Shown piece by piece: positions 7,461 to 25,859 of a DNA stretch of 25,859 bases. The DNA comes from Spirogloea muscicola (taxonomy: Eukaryota > Streptophyta > Zygnematophyceae > Spirogloeales > Spirogloeaceae). A model generated the notes under the pieces. It saw only the letters and a list, made by a program, of their open reading frames with translations. It was not told the origin of the DNA and ran no database searches. Made by a program: the position numbers and the translations under genes. The DNA is taken from contig WELB01000014.1 in NCBI GenBank assembly GCA_009602725.1, positions 908,234 to 934,092 of the forward strand. The letters run 5' to 3'. The number at the start of each line of letters is the position of its first letter. Within the stretch, counting starts at the first letter, position 1.

Positions 7461-10400
7461 TCAGCCACTAAGCTGCGCTTGTGAGCACACAAAGTGGACC
7501 AGTGCCCCTCCCAATGACACTGCGAAGGCACTGAGGCCAATCCTCTTGTGACAAACGTCACAGGTGGAGTCCTCAGTCAAGAGCACGAAGCGCCTCTGCA
7601 GTAGCAGCACTTTACTTCTCACCTGGTCCCAACCAGTCAGGACCAGGGATCAGTTCTTGAGGCTCCATAACAACAAGATCATCATGCCCTCAAGGCGTCA
7701 AAGTAGCACAACGCCTCTGCAGTAATCAACAGTCAGAGGCAACATACACCCAGGGTTCTCGTACATCTGCAAACCATGTGCATGTCAAATGACTGCTGAT
7801 TGTTTGCCGTTATTTTGACCGTGCCTGCAAGTTGTCAGTTCGGCGTAGTCCTTTCACCACAGCTGAGTTGTGGCGGGTGTCTCCATCTTTCAGAAGCTTT
7901 GGCTGCAGGAAGACCAACAGCCGCTGCAACAAAAAAGTGAACCGTGTAAGCAGAAACTACGACGACTTCCTCGAGCTCACTTTCATACATTGGTGATCAC
8001 AAAAGACAATGATAGAAAGCGAGAGAATCTGACTTTATACCCTCAAGTGCTGCGGAGTCTGAGACATGTGGAGTCCATGTACCCAAAGTCTTCATGAATG
8101 CAAACGCAAAGCCCAAGACTTTGCAAACTTTGGGCTGGGATTTGGCCACCTTACCTGTAGATTAACCTCCCCAGGCACTGCAGCTAAGGCCACTAACATG
8201 TTGAGTGCACTCCATCTCCTGTCAAGAAGCCTCAGTGCCTCCTCCAGCATGACGTCTCCTCTAAATGACTTGCCAGAAGTCGAATCATTGCCCACGTCCT
8301 CATTGGCCCCCATCACCTCCTCCTGACTCCCCAACCTGTTGCTAAAGGCTTCAGTTTTTTGTGACTCCACATGCAGTGTGGAGTCACGACTTGGCTCCAC
8401 CTTTATAAGAGTCTTGTCACTTTCCATAAAGTCCTGTCGTATCTCCTCCATCCTTCGACTCTCAGGACGTGTTTGTCCAACAACCGCTTCCATGATGCCG
8501 TCTACAATTTTGTCATACTCCGTCAAGGCTGATGCTGGCTGAACATAGATCTTGAGCAGCATCATATGCAGATTGTTCCCTGGAAAGCCGGCCTCGTCCA
8601 CTGGCCAAGAAACAAGCTGTGGCTTTCTTGGGTCCTCCCTGGTAGGAACCTGATCGCAATAGGCCACCACCCTCTCAAAGTCCTCCAGCTATTGCAGGAC
8701 AAGGAGTGGAGCTTTGCTCAGCAAGAATTCTGTAGTGGGCATGATCAGCAATCTGGAGAAGACATCTACACCTCGTTTTGGCCAGAGAAGAATAGCTCAA
8801 GCACCTCCTCTGAGGCCCTGCTCCTAACAAGCACAACATACATCAGGACAAACATACATAACACCAGCCTTGCTCCATATGAGCCCAATATATCAAAGTG
8901 CCATGATCACAGTCTCACTCATTCCTTGTGATTGGACCCACTTCGCACCTTCCTGGCAAGGATGACGAGTACCACAAAATGTTGCTGAAGGGCCGAAAAA
9001 ATCAGTGACCTTTCCAGGAAGAGCTTGTCCCTTGGAAAGTGAGGGAGGATAGATATAGCGTCATACAGAAAAGGAGGGCCACTCAGAGCTGCTACAAGCT
9101 TCTTGCGAGCATCACTCATCATACTCCTGTCAGCAGGGCTGTCTCCTTGATTGGCCTCCCGCAGCACAGCCTTCAGGTGAAGGAGGATCTGCAGTAGTCA
9201 AGAGCTGACATTAGCGAAGTTTGTTGCCATTGCTTAAGTGAAAGAATGTCTCAAATCTGCAGACTCGTGCCAGATGTGGAGTAGGTGGTATGAATTTCCA
9301 CATAAGATTAATGGAGTCTTCTGTCATCCTGCTTTGACTGGCGTTCCGTGCACGATGCACGAAGTGAAAGAGTTAAAAGGCTTCTCTTCTTAGGAGCTAC
9401 ATTTAAGTAGTGTTCTGCTTACAAGTCTGGTTTGGAGTTCTCGCTGTGGAGTACTAACTCCATTCGCACTGCTGCCGACCAGGACTGCCTCCAGGTAAGA
9501 GGACTGCAACTGGGGGGCAAATTGCTTCAATTGCTGCAAGGCAATGTCTGCCACAAATGACTTGATCATGTAAGGGCAGATCCAGAGAGAGGCGACGTTC
9601 ACAAGCCACTACGACTAGATCAGACAGCCTGTCTACGTCTTGTCAGACTCATTAGTTGTGCTGTTTTGGGCGATCTGCCAGTCTGCTTAGGCACGTGCTG
9701 TTAATTAATGCAGCTGTAAAATAAGCAGGCCCTATGATACTCCAAGGTGTACTGATCAACGAGTGTGAATCAAGGCATTAACGCCCTTACACAACATAAT
9801 TGCATGATAACATCACAAGATCGACCTTAACATCGTACCTGGAGGCAGGGGTGGATGTATGGATGCTAGCAGGGAGAATCCTTGCTCAGGATGCTTTTGC
9901 AGCAGCCAAGCCAGGTTGCCAACAAGCACGTCCCGGTCACCCTGCCCCAGTGCCTGTCAAATGGTCAACCCTCTCCAGAGGTAACACATCAGAAATTCCT
10001 GCCTCTGTAGCCTCTGTTGCATCTGTAGCTTCAGTATGGCACAACTGGTGCTACACCAAAGTCTAGAAACAGCCGCAACACAAGCTTACAGAGGTCCAAC
10101 AAGATCTAGCATAGAAGTTTCAGCCTCAGTTATGTCCATGACAGCTTTGCAATAAGAAGAGGTTCACCTTGAGGTAGTCCAGTAAGGCTGTCAGCTGCTC
10201 AGTAGTGGCCGCACCCTCCACTTGGTCGTGCAGCAGCTGCAATGCTTCTTGGTGCAGCCCGTTGGCTTTATAGAGCTGCACCAGCAGCTGTCTGCCGCCA
10301 CCTCTGACCTCCAAGAAGCTCCGGCAAGTCTCCACGTCGCAGTAATTTGGGGCGAACAGGAAAGCTGCCACTGACGCTGTGTCGGCCTCCGTCTGCAGAA

Positions 10401-13362
10401 GGACTTGGAGCAATGCTGTGTCAAAGACTACTGCGGCGGCTCTGGCGACAGAGGGCCCCTCTGCTGTCCCGCCAGCCTCCAAGTCGAGGGCCATCGAGCC
10501 ACTCCTTGACTCGCCTTGGCCGCCTTCTAGCACCTCCTTGATCATCTGTGACGTCTCCTCCACATCGACCCTTTCGACGACCGCCCTCCGCCGTCGCTTG
10601 AGGCTCCCGGCAAGAGCCAGCAGCGCTCGCCTGATGTTGGCAGGGGTCAAGCCCGACACGCCCACAGATGCTTGCTCCTGCCCTTTGAGAACCTGGGCAG
10701 CTCCAAGGACTGTGAGGGCTCTGCGCGGGAGGATGAGGGAGGGGAAGAGGGAGAGGAGGGAGACGAGGTCCATGGAGGACGCATCATACTGCTCCATGGC
10801 CGCCACAAAATCGCCCTGCTGGAAGAGTTGCTGTCCGTACCTGCACATCACAGCACCCAGCATATACCACTGAGACAGTCATTTGCATACCATCCAATAT
10901 TTAAGCGATTGTTCAGGCTGTGTTTAAGATGTAAGTTTCTAACAATGAGAGGCTATGTTACGAGTGGGTTAGCAGACAGATTGAGCAGTCTGAGAAAAAC
11001 TGCAGCCAATAGTTTTCCAAAGGCTGCACCTCCTGTGGATGGAGTCCTCTTCTGAAGCCCTCAGCGCAGCGTCCTCGGGAGGGAGGCGCTGGCAGAGGGC
11101 CAGCGCTTCCTCAAACTTCCCCAGGCCTGCCAGCTGGCTCACCTGGCAAAGCCGAAGGAAGAGGGTCAACTAGCTCCATTGTACACTCTCAGTATGCTGC
11201 CGCAATTGTGCGCTCGTGTCTTGACACCTCTCAGGCTCAAGCCACGTAGCAAGATGCTCTTGATTACTCAATGCTGCCTGAAATTAACTCTTGATTTGCA
11301 ATTACCGCACGCCGCACTAATGTCGTACATATCCTGTCTGCAATATCAGTCAAGGGCAAGCTCACCTGCACGCCCAACGGCACCGGCAGCAGCCGCCAGA
11401 TGGTGGACTCGGAGGCAGCCAGGACGCCAGCTTCATTGGCCGCCAGCACAGTGACACCCCTCACAGCCAGGGTCTGGACGAGGGCATGTGGAGGGTCCAG
11501 GCTGCGGACCTGGCCAAGGAGGCCGCCGGCAAGTACGCTTGTCATCGCCGGAGCCAGTGGTCTGCGGCAGCAAAGTCGGCAAGGGAGGAGGGCCGAGTCG
11601 GCGTACGCAGGCTGCGGACTGTTCCAAAGCTCCTCAGTCGAGTCCACCGGGACTACAGAGGCATTGTATGACAGCACGTACCTAAATTGATATATCAGAT
11701 CAAACAAGATGGTGCCAAGATTGACCTTGATGACGGACTCCTGCATCCGGGAGACATACTTCAATAAAGCGCGAGAGAAGGCCGAGGGCGTATGGTTCGA
11801 CCACCGCGACAGCCAGCGGCGCCTCAGACCAACTCAGACCTCCGTGGCCAATTGGCCTGCCCCGCCAGTCCACGAGCACGCAGATACTGTCCTGCAAATA
11901 TTCAGCCAGGCCTGAGCTGCCGGCAGCAACTCAAGCAACACCAAGAAAAGCTCTTGAAGTATTTCTACAAGGATTCTGCCTGGGTAATGTATACAACTGA
12001 AGCGGTACATCGATAGTAAAACATTCAATTGGGTGATCACCAATGTCGCTAGTCCTCTAGAGCAGACCTTGCAGCTGATAACCTGAAGAGACCCGAAGTG
12101 AGCTAGCAACTGGCCCATCAAATAGTCATGCTAGTACAGAACACCTTGACACTGATGCATGCACCAGTGCAGGTAGATAGGGGCCGCTGGGTGTGGAGCC
12201 CGGGCCCAACCTTGCCAAGCAGGAGACTGCCGCCAGCGTGCACGACCAGCGGCGAAGCGGTGTAGCCGGAGGGAAAGATGTTGGACACAGTGCCCGTGTG
12301 CACGTCGAGGATCACGTACTCGCGTCGGATGGCCAGGCAGAGGCGCTCCGCAGCCGGGCCGGCCCATGCGAGCGCCTTCACCACGTCGGGCGCAGCCATC
12401 TCCTTCACCTCTTGCAGCTGCCGGCTCACGCCTGGACGCCAGGGTGCGCACACTCTTGAGATGTGTCGGAAATCATCATTTTGACAAATCTTATACAATT
12501 AAAGCAGGTAAATGCACTGGCTAGACAGCCAACTTATGCCACCAATTATACTTCAGATCCTAAAGCTGAGAAGAAAAGGTAGAATTCGCGGTCAGCATGA
12601 TTGTAGGCGGCCATAAGACTCTCGCGAGGCAACTAGCAGCTCCGCTTCTGCAACCATCGGCCGGCACAGCCACGCCAGGAGCTCGGCAGCCAAGCAGGGA
12701 GCTCGACACAAAGCACGGCTGTCCAAGCACGAGCCGGTGGCAGAGCGAGAAGGTCTAGCGGCGTAGACCGCCATGGCTGCACCAGGCCTCCCGCAGCAAG
12801 GACTGAGGCCTGACGACGACAGCAGCGGCCAGCGCTCAGTGAACTGCGGGGCGAATGGCGCACCGTCGAGGCGATAGATGAGGAGGCGGCGGCGGGGGCC
12901 GGCGACGGCCAGCGCGCCGGAGGGCGCGTGCCAGGCGTAGGCGGCGGCGCCGCGCGCGCGCGGCGGNNNNNNNNNNNNNNNNNNNNNNNNNNNNNNNNNN
13001 NNNNNNNNNNNNNNNNNNNNNNNNNNNNNNNNNNNNNNNNNNNNNNNNNNNNNNNNNNNNNNNNNNNNNNNNNNNNNNNNNNNNNNNNNNNNNNNNNNNN
13101 NNNNNNNNNNNNNNNNNNNNNNNNNNNNNNNNNNNNNNNNNNNNNNNNNNNNNNNNNNNNNNNNNNNNNNNNNNNNNNNNNNNNNNNNNNNNNNNNNNNN
13201 NNNNNNNNNNNNNNNNNNNNNNNNNNNNNNNNNNNNNNNNNNNNNNNNNNNNNNNNNNNNNNNNNNNNNNNNNNNNNNNNNNNNNNNNNNNNNNNNNNNN
13301 NNNNNNNNNNNNNNNNNNNNNNNNNNNNNNNNNNNNNNNNNNNNNNNNNNNNNNNNNNNCAT
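7461..13362 (-). CDS. VPS39: VPS39/VAM6 HOPS-complex subunit, multi-exon; 5' exon partly in assembly gap
   Basis: VPS39 is a tethering subunit of the HOPS complex acting in vacuole/late-endosome fusion; in yeast its N-terminal propeller binds the Rab7-type GTPase and its C-terminus binds VPS11. Inferred exons (minus strand, 5' to 3'): gap edge/12966-12864, 12431-12211, 11891-11760, 11509-11366, 11142-11030, 10840-10168, 9953-9839, 9547-9423, 9188-8949, 8688-8155, 7923-7820, 7766-7748 (19-nt microexon, tentative), 7595-7461; phases are continuous throughout. CNH propeller motifs: AYAWHAPSG, IRREYVILDVHTGTVSNIFP, WSEAPLAVAVVEPYALGLL, RRLLPVP-type segment. The Vps39 domain 1 includes FDTALLQVLL and NYCDVETC with LYKANGLHQEALQLL. 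The middle has SYLEAVL, RKKLVAAL and LERSLIF. The last exon holds the zinc-type motif CDVC...VHFVC, and the stop is at 7461-7463. About 886 codons are visible. The start is probably the ATG at 13362-13360 abutting the gap, in frame if the gap length is right. Exons match plant VPS39 best. Confidence 0.9.
8361..8387. repeat. Perfect 10-bp inverted repeat inside a VPS39 exon
   Basis: Arms 'gtgactccac' (8361-8370) and 'gtggagtcac' (8378-8387) flank the 7-nt loop 'atgcagt'. The hairpin sits in the poorly conserved acidic linker of the 8155-8688 exon, encoding around DSTLHVES, so it would be present in the mature mRNA. Confidence 0.75.
12967..13359. other. Assembly gap of 393 N
   Basis: The gap interrupts the first exon of the minus-strand VPS39 gene. 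Flanking DNA is extremely GC-rich (CGCGCGCGCGGCGG on the left; CGCCGGCGCCGCC on the right), which probably caused the dropout. The stated length, 131 codons, keeps the reading frame open between the ATG at 13362 and the known end of that exon at 12864, but the true length is unknown. Confidence 0.98.
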
Positions 13363-13633: not shown

Positions 13634-16600
13634 ATGGGGCATGCGGTCTTCGAGGCGGCCATTGCAGTGCGCGGCTGCGGCGGCACCGTGACCAGTGCCG
13701 TGCTGTGGCGCAGCTCCGTGCTCGTCGGCTGCTCCGACGGCTCTCTGCGCGTCTTCCCCGCGCCCGCCACCGCCGCCGCCGCCGCCGCCGGCGGGCCCAG
13801 CTACGGCAATGACCACCGCCACGGAGCCCTGCTGCCGCCCTCCGCTGCTGCCGGCCCCGAGCCGGAGACGCCGGCGCCGCATGAATCTGGCACTACGCCG
13901 CCGCGGCAGAGGTCCCTCAGGGCGGCCCTGCGGGACGGCCTCCGCGCCTTCAAGCGCGGCGACCAGGCCAAGTACCAGCTGCGACTGCCGCCGCCGCCGC
14001 CGCCGGCGCCGCCTCCGCTGCCTGACGCTAGCCAGCCGCCGCCACCGCCGCAGCCCTCGCTCTCGTCGCCGGCTGCCAGCCGCACCGTCACGGGCTTCGC
14101 GACCAAGGCCGTGGTGCAGCTGGACGTGGTGGACCCCGACGGCCTGCTCCTGCACTTGGCCGACGGCGTCGGGCTGCACGCCCTCCCGGGCCTGGAGGCG
14201 GCCGTGCAGCAGCTCGACGAGACGCGCGGAGCGTACATGTACGCCTGGGACGGCCACGCCAGCCGCCTGTGCGTCGTCAAGGACCGCCGCCTGCTCCTCT
14301 ACAAGCTCGACTGTGAGAGCCCTCGCTCGCCGCGGCGGCCGCAGTGAGAGCTGCCAGAGCCCGACCTCCGGAGTCGCTTGCTAAACCCTCGAATCTAAAC
14401 CCTGAACCACCAACGATGTACCTTGCGTGCCGCCCCTGGCAGGCAGCGGGAGGCGCTTCGCAGACTTCCTTGAGCAGCGCGCGCCCGGCATCGTGCAGGC
14501 CGCGGCATGGTGCGGCCCGCGCTCGCTCTGCCTTGGCCTGGGCAGCAAGTACGTGCTGATCGACACCGAGGACGGCTCTGCCATCGCCGACGCCGCGCCC
14601 TGCAGCCAGCCGGCGCCCTGCCTGGCTGTGCCTCTGGGGAGTGGGAGTGGCGTGCTGCTGCAGCAGGTCCATTGCAGCACCCTCTGCAGGCGCCAGTTAG
14701 CAATGCCTGTCGAGGTGTGGCGGTCAAAAGCTGATGCCTCCGATGGCGGTGTTGTGCTGCGGCTACACAGGAGGGCGCGGGGGTAGTGCTCAGCGTGGAC
14801 GGACGTGCGGAACGTGGGGAACGGCTTGAGTGGCGGGAGGCACCCATTGCAGTCGCGGTGTCGCCACCGTACGCCGTCGCCCTTCTCCATTCGGGCACTG
14901 TGGAGGTGAGGCTACATGCCACCACTTGCCGACTCGAAGTTGCCGGGCCCAGCACCTGCCTGCTTGAAGGTGGCAGCTGCATTGGTGGTGGCTGTCATAA
15001 TAACGTCGAGCCCTGTGGAAGGTCGCATTGTGGCACTTCCCATGTTCTACTGGCGGCTTGCAGTCTTGCCACACCTCTCACGGTGGGCCTTGCGCTGTGC
15101 CAGGTCAGGCTGCTGGAGCCGCCCTTCCCTCTCGTCCAGACGATGGTGGTAGCCGACGGCCTGCGGCTCCTCGCCATTGACAGCGCTACGGGTGCGGTCC
15201 TTGCCAGCAGCTCCGCCGATGTCCACCTACTTACGCTGGTGCCTCTCCAGCAGCAGGTGACATAAGATTGAGGACTACGCGGTCAAGTCGCACACTAATA
15301 GGCTGTTGTCATGGGTCTCATACGGCACTACTGCAGCTGCTAACTTGGATAGGAAGTGGATGATATTGGGCTGATGCTGGCTTTGCTCATCCGCTGCTCA
15401 ATCGTTGGAGCTGACGGGGGCAAGCGCGCCGCCACCCTGCTCTCACTTCGGCGACGGCCGCAGGTCGAGCAGCTGGAGGCATCGCACGAACACAAGGAAG
15501 CATTGACGCTGTGCAAGCATCTGCCGCTCGAGGAGCGGCCTCGAGCAGAGGCGCATGTCCATGCCAGGTGCCCTGCTTGCTTGACTGCAGCTGTCCGTCA
15601 AGTGCCACAAAGGGTCCCGGTGCTTTCCCTCATTTTTAGTTCTGCTTCAGGCCACTAAAATCAGAATCAGGCAACCAAACCTGGCCATCTAACATGGCTG
15701 GACCCTTACCTCAAATCTATCCTCGACCGTGGAAGAATGAGTTGCTGCGCAAATTGTTGCGGTCTGCGCCAGTTGCTTTCACTTTCCTATGTCTTGCACC
15801 GTTCTGAGAAGCACGCTGGATCGCGGGGCCATTCCTGCAGCTTTGGGCAGCACCTATTTCGCAAGGGCGACTACACTGAGGCACTGGCGCAAGTGGCGTC
15901 ATCATCGCCAGACCTTTCTATGGTGCTTGCGCTCTACCCCAACATTTGCCAAGTGCAGCCTGCCCAGAACGACGATGGCGTCGGCGACCCCTCCACTGTG
16001 CCGGTGCTGCGCTTGCCTGGCTCGCTACTAGCCGCTTTGGGTGGCGCATCGGTCAGCGACAATGCACTCGGCGGTTGCCGAGCCAAAGATGACGTTGAGG
16101 CAAGTAGCCCCCAGGAAGCGCTGCAAGCATTGAGGAGCTACCTCCTCCAGAAGCGGCTGACGGTGCTGGAGGCTGTAGAGGCAGAGGCACGGGCTGCGGA
16201 CAGCGCTGGAACAGTCCCAGTGCCGGCCGCTGCTGACCACGATGGGCCAGGAGCAGTGGCTTGCGCCAAGGAGCTGGGCGGAGGCAGCACGGCGGCTGCG
16301 GCGGCTACTCTACTGGACACGGCGCTGCTGCAGGTGCACCTGAAGCTCGGTGGTGAAGGTGGGGGGACAGCTGCCGCTGAGCACCTCCTGCTGGGCCAGA
16401 ACTTTTGCGATGCAGCTGTGAGCGAGGCCGCGCTCGTCTCGGCAGGGCGGCGCGACTTACTCGTGCCGCTTTACCGGAGTCGCGGCTTGCACAAGAGGGC
16501 GCTGGCCATGCTACGCGAGTCAGCTGCAGAGAGCTGCCATGCGGACGGTGAGGCCGCAGTGCAGGCTATTGTGACGTACCTTCGCAAGGTTGGCCCCGCG

Positions 16601-17052
16601 GAGCAGGAACTGGTGCTGGAGTCCTCCACGTGGCTCCTTGCCGAGCACCCCCAGCTGGCACTTAACCTTCTCCAAAGTATGAAGCCCGCCATCGCCCCAG
16701 GTCTGCTCTGGCCCCTGACCCTGAACCTTGAGATATGCTAGAAGCAGACAGACACACCTGCCCAGCACTGCAAGATTACATTATAATCACTTCTCTTCAT
16801 AGCCCATGACTTCCATATTTACCAGCATGTTGACAAAAGTGTTCCTTGGTCTGAAACTCTCATAGTTTCCCACGTAAAGGCATTTCAGGAGTTGTGGCCG
16901 ACCACCTGGAGCAACATGCCCTGGCCCTGAGACCCCTCTACCTCGAGGCTGTGCTCAGGAACCGGTCCGGCGAGCGCAAGGATCCCGGGCATCTAGATGA
17001 AGCGGTGCTTGCCCACTCCTCAAGTGTCACAATCTCTTGCACAAGTCGCTAA
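13634..17052 (+). CDS. VPS39-type paralogue lacking the C-terminal third; possibly spliced to the Sel1 ORF
   Basis: This is a second VPS39-family protein, divergent from its neighbour. Inferred exons: 13634-14312, 14443-14666, 14771-14905, 15104-15256, 15464-15567, 15841-16700, 16889-17052; phases 1,0,0,0,2,1 join without a break (about 772 codons). The start MGHAVFEAAIAV followed by LVGCSDGSLRVF matches the plant VPS39 N-terminus and fixes the ATG. CNH propeller: RTVTGFATKAVVQLDVV, AYMYAWDG, SKYVLIDTEDG, WREAPIAVAVSPPYAVALLH, LLEPPFPLVQTMV. Vps39 domain 1: TLLDTALLQVHL, NFCDAAV, LYRSRGLHKRALAML, then STWLLAEHPQ and LYLEAVL. After that the frame reads on for about 30 codons to TAA at 17050, with no equivalent of the later exons or of the zinc motif. 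Intron positions equal those of the minus-strand gene, which has one more intron. Alternatively exon 7 ends at 17004 and joins the Sel1 ORF (acceptor 17286) in frame. Confidence 0.85.
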
Positions 17053-17301
17053 TGGCCAGATTGGACTTGTGGCCATGCATCCAAGCGGGTGCCAACCTTT
17101 CGCCGTTGCTCAGTCTCCATCCACTGCTACTGATGCTTGTTGTGGCTGCTGGTTGACTGCCCGAAGACTTATCTACAGTCATGTGTATAAGAGACCTGTC
17201 AAACATGCCATAGTTGCAGCCAAGTCATAGACAGCGAGTCTCTGCAATTTGACTGAGAGACCAGCGTGCTTCTTCTTGGTTGGCAGGGCCATCTTCCAGG
17301 C

Positions 17302-18795
17302 ATGCCGCTGAGCCCAAAGGACCGACCCAACAGCCTGCCCAGCAACACGGGCAACTCGGCCGTATACATTGAGACGACGGACCCGCTGCAGGCATATCGG
17401 GAGGGCGCAGAGCGTGGGGTGGCTCAGGACCAATATGACCTCGGGCTCTGCTACGAACGGGGTCGTGGAGTCGCTGCAGACCCTTGCAAGGCGGCAGCGT
17501 TGTACCGCCGGGCGGCAGAGGGTGGCCATGCCAAGGCGCAGTGCAATCTAGGCGTGCTCTATGAGCTTGGCGAGGGTGTAGTGCCAGACGCAGGCGAAGC
17601 TGTGGCATGGCACAGGAGAGCTGCGGAGCAGGGTATCGCGCAGGCGCAGTTCAACCTTGGTGCCTCGCTGGAGCATGGCCGCGGTGTGGCGCAGGACGCC
17701 ACTGAGGCTTTGCGATGGTACCGTGCCGCCGCTGAGCAAGGCACCGCCCCGGCCATGGTCTGCCTCGCCCTGCTCTGCTGCGACTGTGCCGAGTCTGTGA
17801 AGTGGCTGCGTGCCGCCGCGGCCCTCGGGAACCTGGACGCAGAGTGCCAGCTGGCGCTGAAACTCTTCCTGGGCGAGGGCGTGCCTGAAGACCACGCCGA
17901 GGGCATACGGCTGTTGCAGGCGAGCACGGCACGCGGCCACGCAGAGTCACAGTATCGCCTCGGGGACTGCTATTATGAGGGCAAGGGCGTCAAGAAGGAC
18001 CTCTTGCGTGCCACAGAGCTTTACCGCAAGGCTGCCGAGCAGGGCCAGAGCGGCGCAGCTTACAATCTGGGGGTGTGCTACAAGCACGGGCGCGGTGTGG
18101 AGGCAAGCCCGGAGCAGGCTGCAGAGTGGTACCGCTCGGCAGCCGAGGCTGGCCACATGTATGCACAGTTCAATCTAGGCGCGAGCTACGAGCGAGGCCG
18201 CGGCGTGCCCAAGGATGCTGTAACAGCGGTGCAGTGGTACCGGCTGTCAGCGGCACAGGGCTGTGCTATGGCGCAGTGCAACCTGGGAGCGTGCTTGGCG
18301 TCGGGCCGCGGGTGCGAGCGCGACGAGGTCGAGGCAGTGGAGTGGTATCGGGCGGCAGCGGAGCAGGGTGTCGCAGTGGCGCAAAACAAGCTGGGCGCAT
18401 GCTACGACGAGGGCAAGGGGTGCGAGGTGGACATGGTTGCAGCAGCAAGCTGGTATCAACGTGCTGCAGAGCAGGGCCTGGCTGCTGCTCAGCTCAACCT
18501 GGGCATGTGCCATGCAACTGGCAAGGGCGTGGCGCAGGAGTGGGGGGCGGCAATGTCATGGTACCGCGCTGCGGCAGAACAGGGCGACGCGGAGGCGCAA
18601 TACTGCCTCGGGCTGTGTCATGAGCAGGGCCTGGGCCTGGCCAAGCGCGGCGTGGTGGCAATGCAGCACGAGATGAGGGAGGCGATGCGGTGGTACCAGG
18701 CTGCAGCAGATCAAGGCCACGAGGCTGCGCTGGAGCAGATGATGGCTGCCGCGCTAAAAAGTGCCTCCTCTAGCCAGAATGCGTATGCAATCTGA
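17302..18795 (+). CDS. Sel1-like repeat protein, about 12 repeats, uninterrupted ORF
   Basis: A 497-codon frame encodes a solenoid of Sel1-like repeats (a TPR relative of about 36 residues) that generally acts as a protein-interaction scaffold, as in SEL1L/Hrd3. Twelve repeat units can be counted from the pattern A-x-A-Q-x-N-L-G-x-x-Y-x-x-G-x-G-V...A-x-x-W-Y-R-x-A-A-E-Q-G, for example AQFNLGASYERGRGV and AVEWYRAAAEQG. The fourth unit (APAMVCLALLCCD) has lost its loop and is short. The tail ends with AALKSASSSQNAYAI. No signal peptide or membrane segment is seen, so an ER role is not supported. The chosen ATG (17302) follows a strong polypyrimidine-AG acceptor at 17286, and the frame is open back to it. 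Either the gene has a 5' UTR intron or this is the last exon of the upstream VPS39-type gene. It is the only long intronless coding stretch in the window. Confidence 0.88.
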   Translation: MPLSPKDRPNSLPSNTGNSAVYIETTDPLQAYREGAERGVAQDQYDLGLCYERGRGVAADPCKAAALYRRAAEGGHAKAQCNLGVLYELGEGVVPDAGEAVAWHRRAAEQGIAQAQFNLGASLEHGRGVAQDATEALRWYRAAAEQGTAPAMVCLALLCCDCAESVKWLRAAAALGNLDAECQLALKLFLGEGVPEDHAEGIRLLQASTARGHAESQYRLGDCYYEGKGVKKDLLRATELYRKAAEQGQSGAAYNLGVCYKHGRGVEASPEQAAEWYRSAAEAGHMYAQFNLGASYERGRGVPKDAVTAVQWYRLSAAQGCAMAQCNLGACLASGRGCERDEVEAVEWYRAAAEQGVAVAQNKLGACYDEGKGCEVDMVAAASWYQRAAEQGLAAAQLNLGMCHATGKGVAQEWGAAMSWYRAAAEQGDAEAQYCLGLCHEQGLGLAKRGVVAMQHEMREAMRWYQAAADQGHEAALEQMMAAALKSASSSQNAYAI

Positions 18796-19854: not shown

Positions 19855-20967
19855 ATGGCGGTGAGACAGCCGACCGGCGACGCCGGGCTGCCTGCACCGC
19901 CACGGCTGCGCCGCCCTGGCGAGCTCCGGCGCAGAGCACGGCCTCGCCGCGCCGCTCCCAGACGCACTGACCACCGCCGCCGCCGCGGCCGCCACCGTTT
20001 TCGCCGCCGCAGACGGTGCCGGTGAACCCCAAGCCGTTCCTCAACGACCTGACGGGCAAGCCGGTGATTGTGAAGCTCAAGTGGGGCATGGAGTACAAAG
20101 GCGAGCACTCCCTCCCCCCTTCTCCTCGTCGCGCTCACGGCTCGTCGCGAGCAGGCCCGCCGTAGCCGCCTCGCTTGCAGCACCGGCAGCGGCGTCGCGC
20201 CAGATTGGCGCTGGCCTTGCCGTTGCACATGAAGAAGGGTTCAGTGCTCGGTGCTTGAGGCACTGCCACCGCTCACCAGCCTCCTGCGGCGGTCCTCTCG
20301 CAGGCTACCTTGTCTCGGTCGACTCGTACATGAACCTCCAGGTTCGACGCCCTGCCTGCACTCCTCCGCGCCTTGTCTCCAGGCGGCTACAGCATTTGGC
20401 CTTGCCGAGCACAGCAGCCTTCTGGGCGGAGGGGTGTGACACACCGTGGCCGCCGCCCCTTTGCAGCTAGCGAGCACGGAGGAGTTCATCGACGGCGAGT
20501 TCATGGGCAACCTCGGCGAGGTCCTGATCAGGTGGCTACGGCAGGCCCAATATCTTGTCGCTCTCCGCTGTCCAGTTTCATCCATATTTTGGGAGGCTGT
20601 GCCAACAGACTAATTGCTGTCCGCATGGCTGAAGTACCTCGCATGTGTGCTCTTCATTTGGCGGCAACGAAGTCAAGTGGGTCCTCAGCTCGCAAATGAC
20701 AGACGCCAAGCCATCTTTTCATTGAGAAAGATGGCTTGTAGCGCCAGCATACTTGCGGGAGGGGGCATCAGGCACCTCTATGAGCAGCAATGCACGTGGG
20801 CAACATCACCACTGACAGGCCCTCTGCAATTGGTAGTGACGGCACGGCTGCTAATCCTCTGTTTGCATGCCTTCTGTGGGACATGCAGGTGTAACAATGT
20901 CCTATACTTGAGAGGCGTGCCAGAGGATGAGGAGATTGCTGAGGCTGAGGCTGGCGAGCAGGGGTGA
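19855..20967 (+). CDS. SNRPF: Small nuclear ribonucleoprotein SmF (Sm core, spliceosome)
   Basis: SmF is one of seven Sm proteins forming the ring around the Sm site of U1, U2, U4 and U5 snRNAs in the nucleus. Five exons join in phase: 19855-19860 (only Met-Ala), 20013-20100, 20304-20341, 20467-20531, 20889-20967. The product is 91 residues, the usual SmF length. It begins [20 protein letters not shown]. Sm motif 1 is seen in [20 protein letters not shown] followed by NLQL, and Sm motif 2 in [19 protein letters not shown], with a short acidic C-terminus EAEAGEQG. The match to plant and animal SmF is near complete. Intron 2 starts with GC (20101, GCGAGC) instead of GT, and intron 4 contains a 12-bp perfect hairpin. 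The first exon holds only six coding bases. The gene converges on the L12 gene, with about 1.2 kb between stops. Confidence 0.97.
20707..20738 (+). repeat. 12-bp perfect hairpin in SmF intron 4
   Basis: Arms 'caagccatcttt' (20707-20718) and 'aaagatggcttg' (20727-20738) pair perfectly around an 8-nt loop, with three more pairs possible after a 2-nt bulge. It is located mid-intron. It could be an intronic small-RNA precursor, a splicing-modulating stem or a transposon relic; nothing distinguishes these. Confidence 0.75.
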
Positions 20968-22135: not shown

Positions 22136-23069
22136 TCACTCGATACCGCACGTAGCGCCGACAGCCTTGAGCTTCTCCAGCATGGCATCGGCCTCGTCCT
22201 TAGTCACGCCCTTCTTGATGATCGCAGGCGCTGACTCCACCAGATCCTTGGCCTCCTTGAGACCCAGCGCCGTCATCGCGCGCACCTCCTGCGGTGCGTG
22301 TGCGGCAAAGCACGAGCAGCGCACAGGTAGTGCCTGCCATCAGGGGTGGCCACCAAAGTGGTGGCCAACGAACGAAGCTAACGAGAGATCTTGTCTAGAT
22401 AACCTTTAACAGCAGCATAGACAACAAGAAGTTGCCTTTCTACTGGAAGTGGAGTAAGTTGACGAGGCAACACTCGTATCTAAGGGCTGCCGCCAGTGAC
22501 TCTCGGCCACTTGGGCAGCGCCACAAACCTTGATGATCTTGATCTTCTGCGCGGCGTCGAACTTCTCCAGCTTGACGTCAAAGGAGGTCTTCTCGGCGGC
22601 CGCAGAGGGGGCCGCAGCCGCCGCGCCGGCACCACCGCCGCCGCCACCGCCCATGCCCATGCCCATGGGCATGCTCATCGGCAAGTCCCCCATGCCTGCC
22701 CAAGCGCAAACGCGCACGTCCCATGTGGGGTCTCAGCGCCGTCGCCGCCACGCAGCGCCAGTCGCCAGACTGCTGCTGCCTTAAATCCCTGCCGGCGGGG
22801 TTTTGCAGAAGCAGGAGGAGGGAGGAAGGGGGGGGAAGGGGGGGGCGCGCACCCAGGCGGTGGCGCAGCAGCGAGGTGAGGCCGGAGACCTCGAGCAGCG
22901 TGAGCGAGGAGATCTCGTCCGCCAGCCGCCGCACCTTGTCCGACGGCGCGCTTGGCGCCCCCGCACCGGCCTCCGGGTGCGGCTCCACCACCACCGGCGC
23001 CCGCGCCGCGCCGCCGCCGTGCACCGCCCGACGCCAAGCGGCGNATCTCCATCCGCAGCCAAATGACAT
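22136..23069 (-). CDS. MRPL12: Mitochondrial-type ribosomal protein L7/L12 (bL12m)
   Basis: L12 forms the flexible stalk of the large ribosomal subunit and recruits translational GTPases. Three exons on the minus strand join in phase: 23069-22853, 22695-22529, 22288-22136 (178 codons). The N-terminal dimerisation domain reads [20 protein letters not shown]. The linker contains [12 protein letters not shown] and a Gly/Ala hinge, resembling the MPVMAMMMPGMG linker of plant mitochondrial L12. The C-terminal domain reads [20 protein letters not shown], then [20 protein letters not shown] and [20 protein letters not shown], ending ATCGIE. The first roughly 25 residues are Arg/Ala-rich with Trp and no clear acidic residues, consistent with a mitochondrial targeting peptide. 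The start is uncertain: the ATG at 23069 is in frame, but one codon contains the ambiguous base 23044, and a deletion there would put another ATG in frame. The chloroplast form is less likely because of the linker. Confidence 0.93.
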
Positions 23070-23154: not shown

Positions 23155-24010
23155 TGGTTGCTAGGGAGGCACCCACGTGTCAGCCCCACGCCTGCTCGGG
23201 GACTAGCCCGGGGAGCTGTTAACTCAACTAGAAGTACGTGTAGTCAAGCGTGCCGTTTGTTGCTGCCTAATCTTATTGCCGGTTAGCTTGCAGTCCAGTG
23301 GCGCTGGGGACGCCGCTGGATACGCCATCGAGGTGAACCCATCGCTCGAGACGCCGCTCATGCCAATGAGATGCATTGGCAATGGTGAATAAGAAAGGGC
23401 GGCGAAGCTTGGCAATCCGCTGCCTGAGCTGCGCCTGGTCAACCCCGGCCTCGGTGCTGGACGCTCGCCCTGTAGTCCACGCATCACTGCCTAGCACGCT
23501 CTGTCGTGACCCTGGGGACGGGGCACTGTTGTTATTGTGCCAGAGATCAGCCTGGTGGCTGTGAAGAGAAATTTAAATCAAGGCATGTTGGAAAGAATGC
23601 GGAGCGCGAGCGCCACAGCGCTTGCGCTCGTGACTATGAAAGTATATCTCAGGGGTGCACTTCCGACGAGATGATCACTGAGGAAGCAAGCACTACTAGC
23701 ATTCGTACGAGCTTTTCTGACGTGAAGCCCAGCGGCGCAGTGCTCGTGAGCCAAGGTGGGAGGGCCTCTATGGTGTAGCCACTCGCTAGCAGAAGGTCCA
23801 GCGGCAACAGCAGGCAGTGCCTCTCCGTAACGCCCGCAGCATGCCCGTGCTACGTGCAGCAGAAATCTATGAGGATCTTGTCAAGCTTGAAAGGCTGCCG
23901 GATGCACACCGATGCCGTGGTAAAGCTGACAGCAAGTAGAAAGGCTTGATAGCAGGATGGAATTACTGTGGTGAATGAGGCACATGCGCTCCACGACTGA
24001 AGATGCTGCC
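23152..24010. other. Intergenic DNA between L12 and the pectinesterase gene
   Basis: It should contain the L12 promoter (right side of the gene, since it reads leftward) and the pectinesterase 3' UTR. No gene is recognised. A plus-strand stretch at about 23302-23395 (reading AGDAAGYAIEVNPSLETPLM before a stop) and a minus-strand frame 23224-23487 have mixed composition but no family pattern. A minus-strand frame continuing from the pectinesterase region to 23850 lies in a different frame from the real last exon. Confidence 0.4.
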
Positions 24011-25859
24011 TCATATGACTGGCGGCGGAGGCGGCGGAGGCGGGGGTGGCTGAGCGAGCAGGAGATCGGGGGGCAGTGCAGTGAGGGGCGGTGAGGGAGG
24101 TGGTGGCGAAGGAGGCGGCGGGGGCAAGCCAGCAGCTGCAAGCAGCACTGGGTCTGGCGAAGGTGGGAGAAGCGGAGGGGGTGACGGTGGAGGCGGCGAT
24201 GGCGGAGGAGGTTGCAGAGGTAGTGTGACGTCCAGCGACGGCGGCGGTGGCGGTGGTGGCGGTGGCGGGGGCGGCGAAGGAAAAGGTGGTGGAGGGGTCA
24301 GAGGCGGCGGAGGAGGGGAGGGTGGGGGTGGTGATGGTGCGGGGGGGGCCGGCGGTGGCGACGGCGGCGGCGGCGGTGAGAGCTGGAAGCCAGCAGGCAG
24401 TGGTGGCAGCGGCAGGCTCTGATTGGCGTCCAGGATGTAGTTGCGGTTGTTGTAGGGCGACACGCCATGGGCGTCCAACGTGTGCGTCCAGGCGGCTCGT
24501 GGAAAGAGAACGTGGTTTGCACCAGGGCCAGTCGACTCGTACTCCGCAAAGTAGGCAGTCGGCCGCCGCGATGTGTCGTTGCCCCAGTCCAGCCACGCCT
24601 GTGCAGCATGGTGAAGGTGATTGAGCAATTTTTACATCATTATACGTGAAGCACTTGGCCAAAGATCTACCTGTGTTTCGATAGCTGATCGCTCTGGTGA
24701 TGTGAGAGTGCCTCACCCCAGGGCCGAGGATGCCGGCAATCCGTGTGTTGATGTAGACGACGCGTGAGAAGTTGCCCCAGGGGCGGCCGAGGTATGTAGG
24801 GCCCTCGCCGACGATTGCGCAGTTGAGGAAGACGAAGCCCGTCGGGTCACTGTACCACCCGCGCTTCTGTGCCACAATGTTGCCCATGCCTTTCGCATGC
24901 AGCACGCAGCGCTCGAACAGTGCCGTCGCGTTGCCAAAGATGAAGTCCACAGAGCCCACCACCTCGCACTCCCTGCCCGCAAGGCGCCCCACCCGCAGCC
25001 TTGCTCAGTCGCCTTGAGCACAAGGTGCACGCACGCACGTTGAGTCCAAGCGCCAGGCAGAATAGTGATATGATCAAGAAAGGAGAACAGTGGGCCCCTC
25101 ACCGGTAATACTGCTTGCCTTTGTGAGCATACAGCGTGTCCTGCCAGCTCACAAAGTGTACGCCGAAGAAGGCCACACTGGTCGCCGATACTCGCACTGC
25201 CGGCGCCTGCCCAGAATAGTAAGTGGGTGGCGGTCTGCAACAGCGAGTGTCGATGAGTCGACATGAGCAGCTGTGAAGCGAGAGCATTGTGGACCACCTC
25301 TGAGACCCCTGCAAAGCACTCAAAATGGAGCAGACTGGCTGCCACCTTTGCGAGCCACGATAGACAAGAGACTGGCAGCGAATTGACATCGTCCACTAGC
25401 ACTTATCTTCCACTACTTGTGAGCTGCTTTGTGAGATGCCTGTTTCTCCGTCACAGCAGCCGTTCTTGGGTGTATTGTGGGCCACGGCCACAAGCTGCCC
25501 CTGTGGAGGTCATTGGAGGAGGTGGGAGCTGACCGCGTGGCATTGTTCATGAAGGTGATGTTGTATGCAAGGAAGCCAGCACCAAGGATGGTGACGCTGG
25601 CTGAGCGGTACGTCCCGCGGGTTCTGTTCAACGAATCGAGCCACTGCCCTGCGTTGTGCATCATCAGCACGATTGTGCCCGCCGTGGACTGGCCCCTGCG
25701 CCAAGCAAAGCTTCAACCTCAAGAACTGATTCGACAGGAGAATCGTGGAGAATCTGCATGAAAAAAGTTACGAAGCATGCAGCAGACTTACTTGAGCGTG
25801 ACAAAGCGCTTGGACTTTGGCACAACGATCTCCTCAATGTAGACGCCGTCCTTGACCTT
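24011..25859 (-). CDS. Pectinesterase (CE8) with C-terminal (Ser)Pro-rich tail; 5' end outside window
   Basis: Pectin methylesterases remove methyl groups from homogalacturonan in cell walls. Exons on the minus strand, all in phase: 25859(partial)-25792, 25695-25534, 25234-25103, 24972-24717, 24598-24011. The visible protein begins KVKDGVYIEEIVV (family GxYxE region) and continues YRSASVTILGAGFLAYNITF. All hallmark catalytic blocks are intact: GQAPAVR (oxyanion Gln), FVSWQDTLYAHKGKQYYR (acid/base Asp), GSVDFIFGN (nucleophile Asp) and YLGRPWGNFSRVVY (substrate-binding Arg and Trp). AWLDWG and YFAEYESTGPGAN close the catalytic fold. The last exon then adds about 135 residues of Pro-rich repeats (SPPPPPSPPPAPP type) ending PPPPPVI before the stop at 24011-24013. 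Such SPn modules are typical of hydroxyproline-rich wall glycoproteins of green algae and extensins. The start, any signal peptide and any inhibitor pro-domain lie beyond the window. Confidence 0.93.
24045..24405. repeat. G-rich (plus) / C-rich (coding) repeat encoding the Pro-rich tail
   Basis: Imperfect GGCGGT/GGTGGC-type units cover the stretch, with runs of G on the plus strand such as 'ggcggcggtggcggtggtgg' near 24240. On the coding strand they give CCN (Pro) with interspersed Ser, Ala and Leu codons. Length variation between individuals would be expected. Confidence 0.8.

Follow-up and report, generated by a model that had tools for sequence, protein, structure and literature searches.

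The window, by which we mean the whole 25,859-nucleotide stretch of Spirogloea muscicola DNA analysed here (C14:908234-934092, in an assembly of 153.1 Mb and 471 contigs), contains two VPS39 paralogues arranged head-to-head, a Sel1-repeat open reading frame (ORF), an SmF-like gene recognised by eye and a pectinesterase-like ORF. The minus-strand paralogue is called VPS39a and the plus-strand paralogue VPS39b. The features on which the argument depends are the following.

7464..12966, minus strand: VPS39a, full-type VPS39, with the C-terminal zinc finger zf-Vps39_C within 7464-7595; exon chain set except for 9010-8688 and 8158-7595
13634..14312, plus strand: VPS39b exon 1, with start codon, the start of the CNH/propeller and a Pro/Ala-rich insert
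14443..14666, plus strand: VPS39b exon 2
14771..14905, plus strand: VPS39b exon 3
15104..15256, plus strand: VPS39b exon 4
15464..15567, plus strand: VPS39b exon 5
15841..16700, plus strand: VPS39b exon 6, with Pfam Vps39_1; three close copies in the genome
16889..17052, plus strand: VPS39b last exon (exon 7), under constraint as far as LYLEAVL (16956), with a tail from there to TAA at 17050-17052 in which protein constraint was not detectable
17004..17005, plus strand: donor proposed by the first-pass annotation, GCG/GTGCTT; GT kept in all three copies, weak score
17053..17301, plus strand: spacer, in which the copies differ by indels of 1 and 8 bases, with two long invariant blocks
17286..17287, plus strand: acceptor-like site, CTTCTTCTTGGTTGGCAG/GGC, strong and identical in all three copies
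17302..18795, plus strand: Sel1-repeat protein ORF, 497 aa, a single open frame

The domains of VPS39a were found as CNH (9.5e-12) and Vps39_1 (1.9e-14) in one spliced piece and as zf-Vps39_C (4.7e-13) in a separate exon. A gap of N at 12967-13359 conceals the promoter region between the two head-to-head genes and the first exon of VPS39a, which extends into it. In VPS39b, the CNH/propeller domain was recognised with E 3.3e-10 (40.7 bits, cut-off 26) and Vps39_1 with E 1.1e-16 to 1.4e-16, which bears out the domain content that had been read from the plus-strand gene by the first-pass annotation. The remainder of the window gave no convincing match for a C-terminal solenoid and zinc finger belonging to VPS39b. 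Across the assembly, Vps39_1 occurred in 6 places and zf-Vps39_C in 5 places, the latter only at VPS39a and on contigs C32 and C71 and none behind VPS39b; a search with VPS39a exon 10 returned 3 places, every one of them VPS39a and none assignable to VPS39b. The gene that carries the zinc finger on C32 and C71 (C32:639065-639166 and C71:516702-516803; two places matched, a third not seen) is a separate one, has no matches to VPS39a exon 10 and, judged by eye, is probably VPS3-like. The idea that the C-terminus of VPS39b is encoded elsewhere in the assembly was therefore rejected.

When VPS39b alone was compared with PDB chains, nothing was found at E 0.01, whereas a profile built from both paralogues matched 7zty, a CNH protein, at E 3.8e-16 and yeast Vam6 in 7zu0 at E 8.1e-8, with weaker matches to Pep5 (0.039) and a Rom2 chain (0.12). 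We take 7zty to be the Chaetomium Vps39 propeller chain. Crystallisation of a Chaetomium Vps39 propeller is described in PMC9592082. In one scan each of the viral and the genome collections, exon 6 of VPS39b had no relatives. Over 507 residues the two paralogues are 37.7% identical, and their synonymous sites are close to saturation, so the duplication that separated them is old.

The locus is present as three collinear copies in the assembly, on C14, C38 and C16, and the Sel1 ORF, VPS39b exon 6, VPS39a exon 10 and the spacer were each found at all three. The identity of the main aligned pieces was 78-94%, and dS between copies was 0.12-0.15 for both VPS39b and Sel1. This collinearity and divergence fits a triplicated genome, and a genome triplication is mentioned for Spirogloea muscicola in PMC7994812. 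A second Sel1 gene was also matched at three loci (C9, C17 and C22), in several pieces and with 38-56% identity, which again fits a triplicated genome. The existence of three collinear copies made it possible to examine the proposals of the first-pass annotation comparatively.

Exons 2-7 of VPS39b up to 17004 (1592 nt) contained zero stops and zero indels in all three copies, while five of the six introns had indels between copies. Exon 1 was open in C14 and C16, with the start codon present in C16 and length differences in multiples of three; in C38, 130 bases including the start codon are N and the remainder is open. From exon 2 to LYLEAVL, dN/dS was 0.42, 0.42 and 0.39 (p<1e-5 each), near the 0.30-0.41 of VPS39a over the same stretch; for VPS39a exon 10 it was 0.48-0.64, and for the end of VPS39b exon 1 (14108-14311), where there are few changes, 0.70, 0.16 and 0.08. 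As judged from the comparison of the copies, the frame of VPS39b has been maintained by purifying selection since the triplication of the locus. We also considered that VPS39b might be a decaying pseudogene. The gene is truncated, its dN/dS is near 0.4 and its tail is unconstrained, but the intact exons beside indel-bearing introns, the significant departure of dN/dS from 1, the similar values of VPS39a and the near-saturated dS between the paralogues all speak against decay, and we regard it as very improbable. The same truncation was found in three homeologous copies, so it is older than the triplication. Together with purifying selection and the lack of any exon 10 or zinc finger for VPS39b in the assembly, this makes the reading of VPS39b as a real, truncated VPS39 paralogue, already suggested by the first-pass annotation, well supported by the genomic sequence.

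The constraint on VPS39b changes at LYLEAVL. Up to this motif, 159 of 1542 columns were variable, against 18 of 93 at 16957-17049 (p 0.015), and the share of third positions among the variable columns fell from 80/159 to 3/18 (p 0.011). Protein constraint was not detectable at 16957-17004. C14 and C38 have the stop codon TAA at 17050-17052; C16 has TAT there, and its frame continues for 27 codons more. Past LYLEAVL, these data would suit an intron or a linker as well as a loose tail at the C-terminus. According to the first-pass annotation, the minus-strand gene has a phase-0 donor directly after LYLEAVL. A GT is indeed present there in VPS39a, but the exon probably does not end at it and most likely continues for 19 codons to CTT/GTAAGC (last exon base 9423); this phase-0 donor has its GT in each of the three copies. 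In VPS39b, the equivalent point lies at about 17010 when a shared proline is aligned by eye, or at 17013 by plain codon count, and neither has a GT. The proposed donor at 17004 thus does not occupy the place corresponding to the VPS39a donor, as had been claimed, and sits 6-9 nt before it.

The first-pass annotation had further proposed that exon 7 is spliced from 17004 to 17287, giving one protein of propeller, Vps39_1 and Sel1 solenoid. Its formal elements were confirmed: GT follows 17004 in phase 0, AG at 17285-17286 leads in phase 0 into the Sel1 ORF, and the joined ORF has 1259 residues. The two sites differ greatly in quality when scored singly with a corrected matrix and compared with 14 reference introns modelled from homology. 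The acceptor is strong, as had been stated, with 7.9 in each copy, within the top 1.5% of plus-strand AGs and above 11 of the 14 modelled acceptors. The donor scored 1.0, 0.6 and 0.6 in the three copies, below 13 of the 14 modelled donors, and 48% of the plus-strand GTs in the window scored as well. Agreement of phase is no evidence for the junction, because each of 5000 codon shuffles of both flanks yielded an in-phase pair; a pair totalling at least 8.0 occurred in 69% of the shuffles, and in 19% a pair equalled or bettered the proposed one at both sites, all with an older matrix that contained one wrong VPS39a donor. In total, 30 in-phase pairs are conserved across the three copies; ranked with the same older matrix, 17004->17287 came out on top with 7.6, followed by pairs with 7.2 and 7.0. 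The pair 17023->17300 scored higher in C14, but is not common to the copies, since C38 and C16 have TG in place of the AG that precedes 17300.

A fusion of this kind could have arisen if a duplicated part of VPS39, carrying a phase-0 donor that had lost its acceptor, had landed upstream of a Sel1 gene. The sequence permits such a fusion, and several observations favour it: the product is in phase, the pair leads the kept pairs by a small margin, the donor is only a few nucleotides from the matching point, the spacer is short, and both variable sites at 17287-17301 are synonymous in the Sel1 frame (2/2). The acceptor also lies within a block of 29 nt (17266-17294) that is invariant in all three copies. 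This is weak evidence, because the spacer has another invariant stretch, of 27 nt, at 17053-17079. On the other side stand the weak donor, the chance frequency of in-phase pairs and the missing protein constraint at 16957-17004, though a linker need not have any. The Sel1 ORF itself also counts against the fusion. Its start codon at 17302 was kept in all three copies, and its dN/dS of 0.08-0.10 (17302-18700) indicates much tighter constraint than the 0.39-0.42 of VPS39b. The ORF is unbroken in C14 and C38, while the C16 copy (C16:434783-436285) has a single internal TAG although VPS39b is intact there. The dN/dS of this copy is as low as that of the others, and the TAG may reflect either a loss that happened recently or a fault in the assembly. 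We therefore consider the single fused protein unlikely, and equally doubtful the larger scenario in which the propeller/Vps39_1 half of VPS39 was joined to a Sel1 solenoid by exon shuffling before the triplication and kept in three homeologous copies.

We believe that the locus probably holds two adjacent genes, a truncated paralogue VPS39b and a Sel1 gene that would begin at ATG 17302. This reading is favoured, and judged likelier than the fusion, since coding constraint ends at LYLEAVL, the Sel1 start codon is conserved and the constraint regime of Sel1 is unlike that of VPS39b. Against it, the two ORFs are only 249 nt apart with neither AATAAA nor TGTAA in the spacer between them, the stop of VPS39b is lost in C16, the acceptor is strong and invariant with only synonymous variation up to the ATG, and VPS39b by itself matched no PDB chain at the threshold given above. 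The missing TGTAA is uninformative, because no plus-strand TGTAA was found within 2 kb past the Sel1 stop either. A mixed outcome, with read-through and alternative splicing from donors such as 16950, 16964, 17023 or 17025, would yield a short VPS39b together with small amounts of a fusion; alternatively, a splice out of frame would do no more than set the 3' end of VPS39b. Donors 16964 and 17023 outscored 17004 in all three copies, and the in-phase pair 16964->17343, also kept, totals 7.0 against 7.6 for 17004->17287 (older matrix), but acceptor 17343 is weak and the sole kept in-phase acceptor for 17023 is poor; such an outcome seems to us less probable still than the fusion.

The spacer was compared with the introns for signs of function. 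Variable columns amounted to 44/235 in the spacer and 312/1126 in the pooled introns (p 0.004). The lower variability of the spacer would fit a promoter or UTR, but it decides little because introns 1 and 2 vary equally little (17.7% and 17.9%, against 18.7% for the spacer). The invariant block at 17053-17079 includes ATTGG, which we take to be an inverted CCAAT box, and this block is a possible candidate for a Sel1 promoter element. A coding spacer was rejected: although C38 and C16 have a longer open frame ahead of Sel1, the indels of 1 and 8 bases break the frame between copies. An intron in the 5' UTR of Sel1 was also rejected, as no spacer donor was both conserved and strong across the three copies. 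Positions 17181-17195 form an exact 15-base match, the longest among the 14 adapter sequences compared, to the Tn5/Nextera mosaic end. Such a match might point to an assembly chimera at this place. The 15-mer occurs once in the 153 Mb assembly (reversed control 0) and is absent from C38 and C16, and both of these copies are collinear through the point; a chimera was accordingly rejected as scarcely credible, and the match is most likely due to chance.

Under the two-gene reading, VPS39b would be an inverted copy of part of VPS39, with the CNH beta-propeller and the first solenoid domain, Vps39_1, retained and the C-terminal solenoid and zinc finger missing. In its seventh exon, the reading frame most likely runs a few codons beyond the lost donor into the stop at 17050-17052, and the Sel1 gene would start at ATG 17302 under its own transcription. 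The tandem Sel1 repeats of this gene were detected at E 2.3e-92 in 11 stretches, with 6ok3 and 4bwr as the closest solved chains, and like known Sel1-repeat proteins it is a Sel1 solenoid.

VPS39b resembles VPS39/Vam6 of HOPS in its CNH and Vps39_1 domains, in the intron positions that it has in common with VPS39a and in the profile match to yeast Vam6. In this two-paralogue match the last significant stretch extends to residue 729 of the Vam6 chain (1049 residues), and VPS39b is therefore without most of the docking part. According to PMC9592082, the C-terminal helices of yeast Vps39 interlock with Vps11, a C-terminal helix contacts the propeller of Vps18, and a predicted Ypt7 site is located on the Vps39 solenoid. 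VPS39b differs from this arrangement in that it has neither the C-terminal solenoid nor zf-Vps39_C, the part that docks on Vps11/Vps18 (PMC9592082). The VPS3/TGFBRAP1 proteins of CORVET are a VPS39-related family whose likeness, according to PMC3785458, lies chiefly in the C-terminus; for VPS39b, identity and intron placement point instead to VPS39a as its partner.

It may be that VPS39b still recognises Rab7 through the retained part and would be unable to dock in HOPS. It could then act as a Rab7 effector independent of HOPS, regulate VPS39a or compete with it, or serve at vacuole contact sites. For the last of these, the role of yeast Vps39 outside HOPS, in vCLAMP with Ypt7 and Tom40 (PMC8762554), may offer a parallel by analogy. 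The first-pass annotation had suggested a tether that recruits something other than HOPS: the loss of the HOPS-docking part is supported by the comparison above, but the exchange of partner depends on the unproven fusion. A VPS39 copy that is kept by selection minus its HOPS-docking end would mean that the Rab7-reading half has been parted from the tethering half in nature, and an alga with such a protein would be a place to probe HOPS-free roles of VPS39. If the fusion were true, a vacuolar Rab7 reader would be wired to a Sel1 scaffold in place of HOPS. To our knowledge, the domain architecture CNH-Vps39_1-Sel1 is known nowhere else in membrane tethering. Full-text literature searches, judged from titles and the beginnings of abstracts, returned no CNH or Vps39 fused to Sel1, and a full-text search for VPS39 in green algae found no paper.

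Three further features were noted downstream of the Sel1 gene. An SmF (snRNP F)-like gene at 19857-20967 on the plus strand was recognised by eye, and the one ORF of it that was scanned gave no Pfam match. A possible ribosomal L7/L12 exon lies on the minus strand at 22409-22732 (Pfam E 0.04, below the cut-off). A Pectinesterase domain was found at 23853-25004 on the minus strand (E 1.3e-18), and a Ser-Pro-rich open frame overlaps it in a different reading frame.
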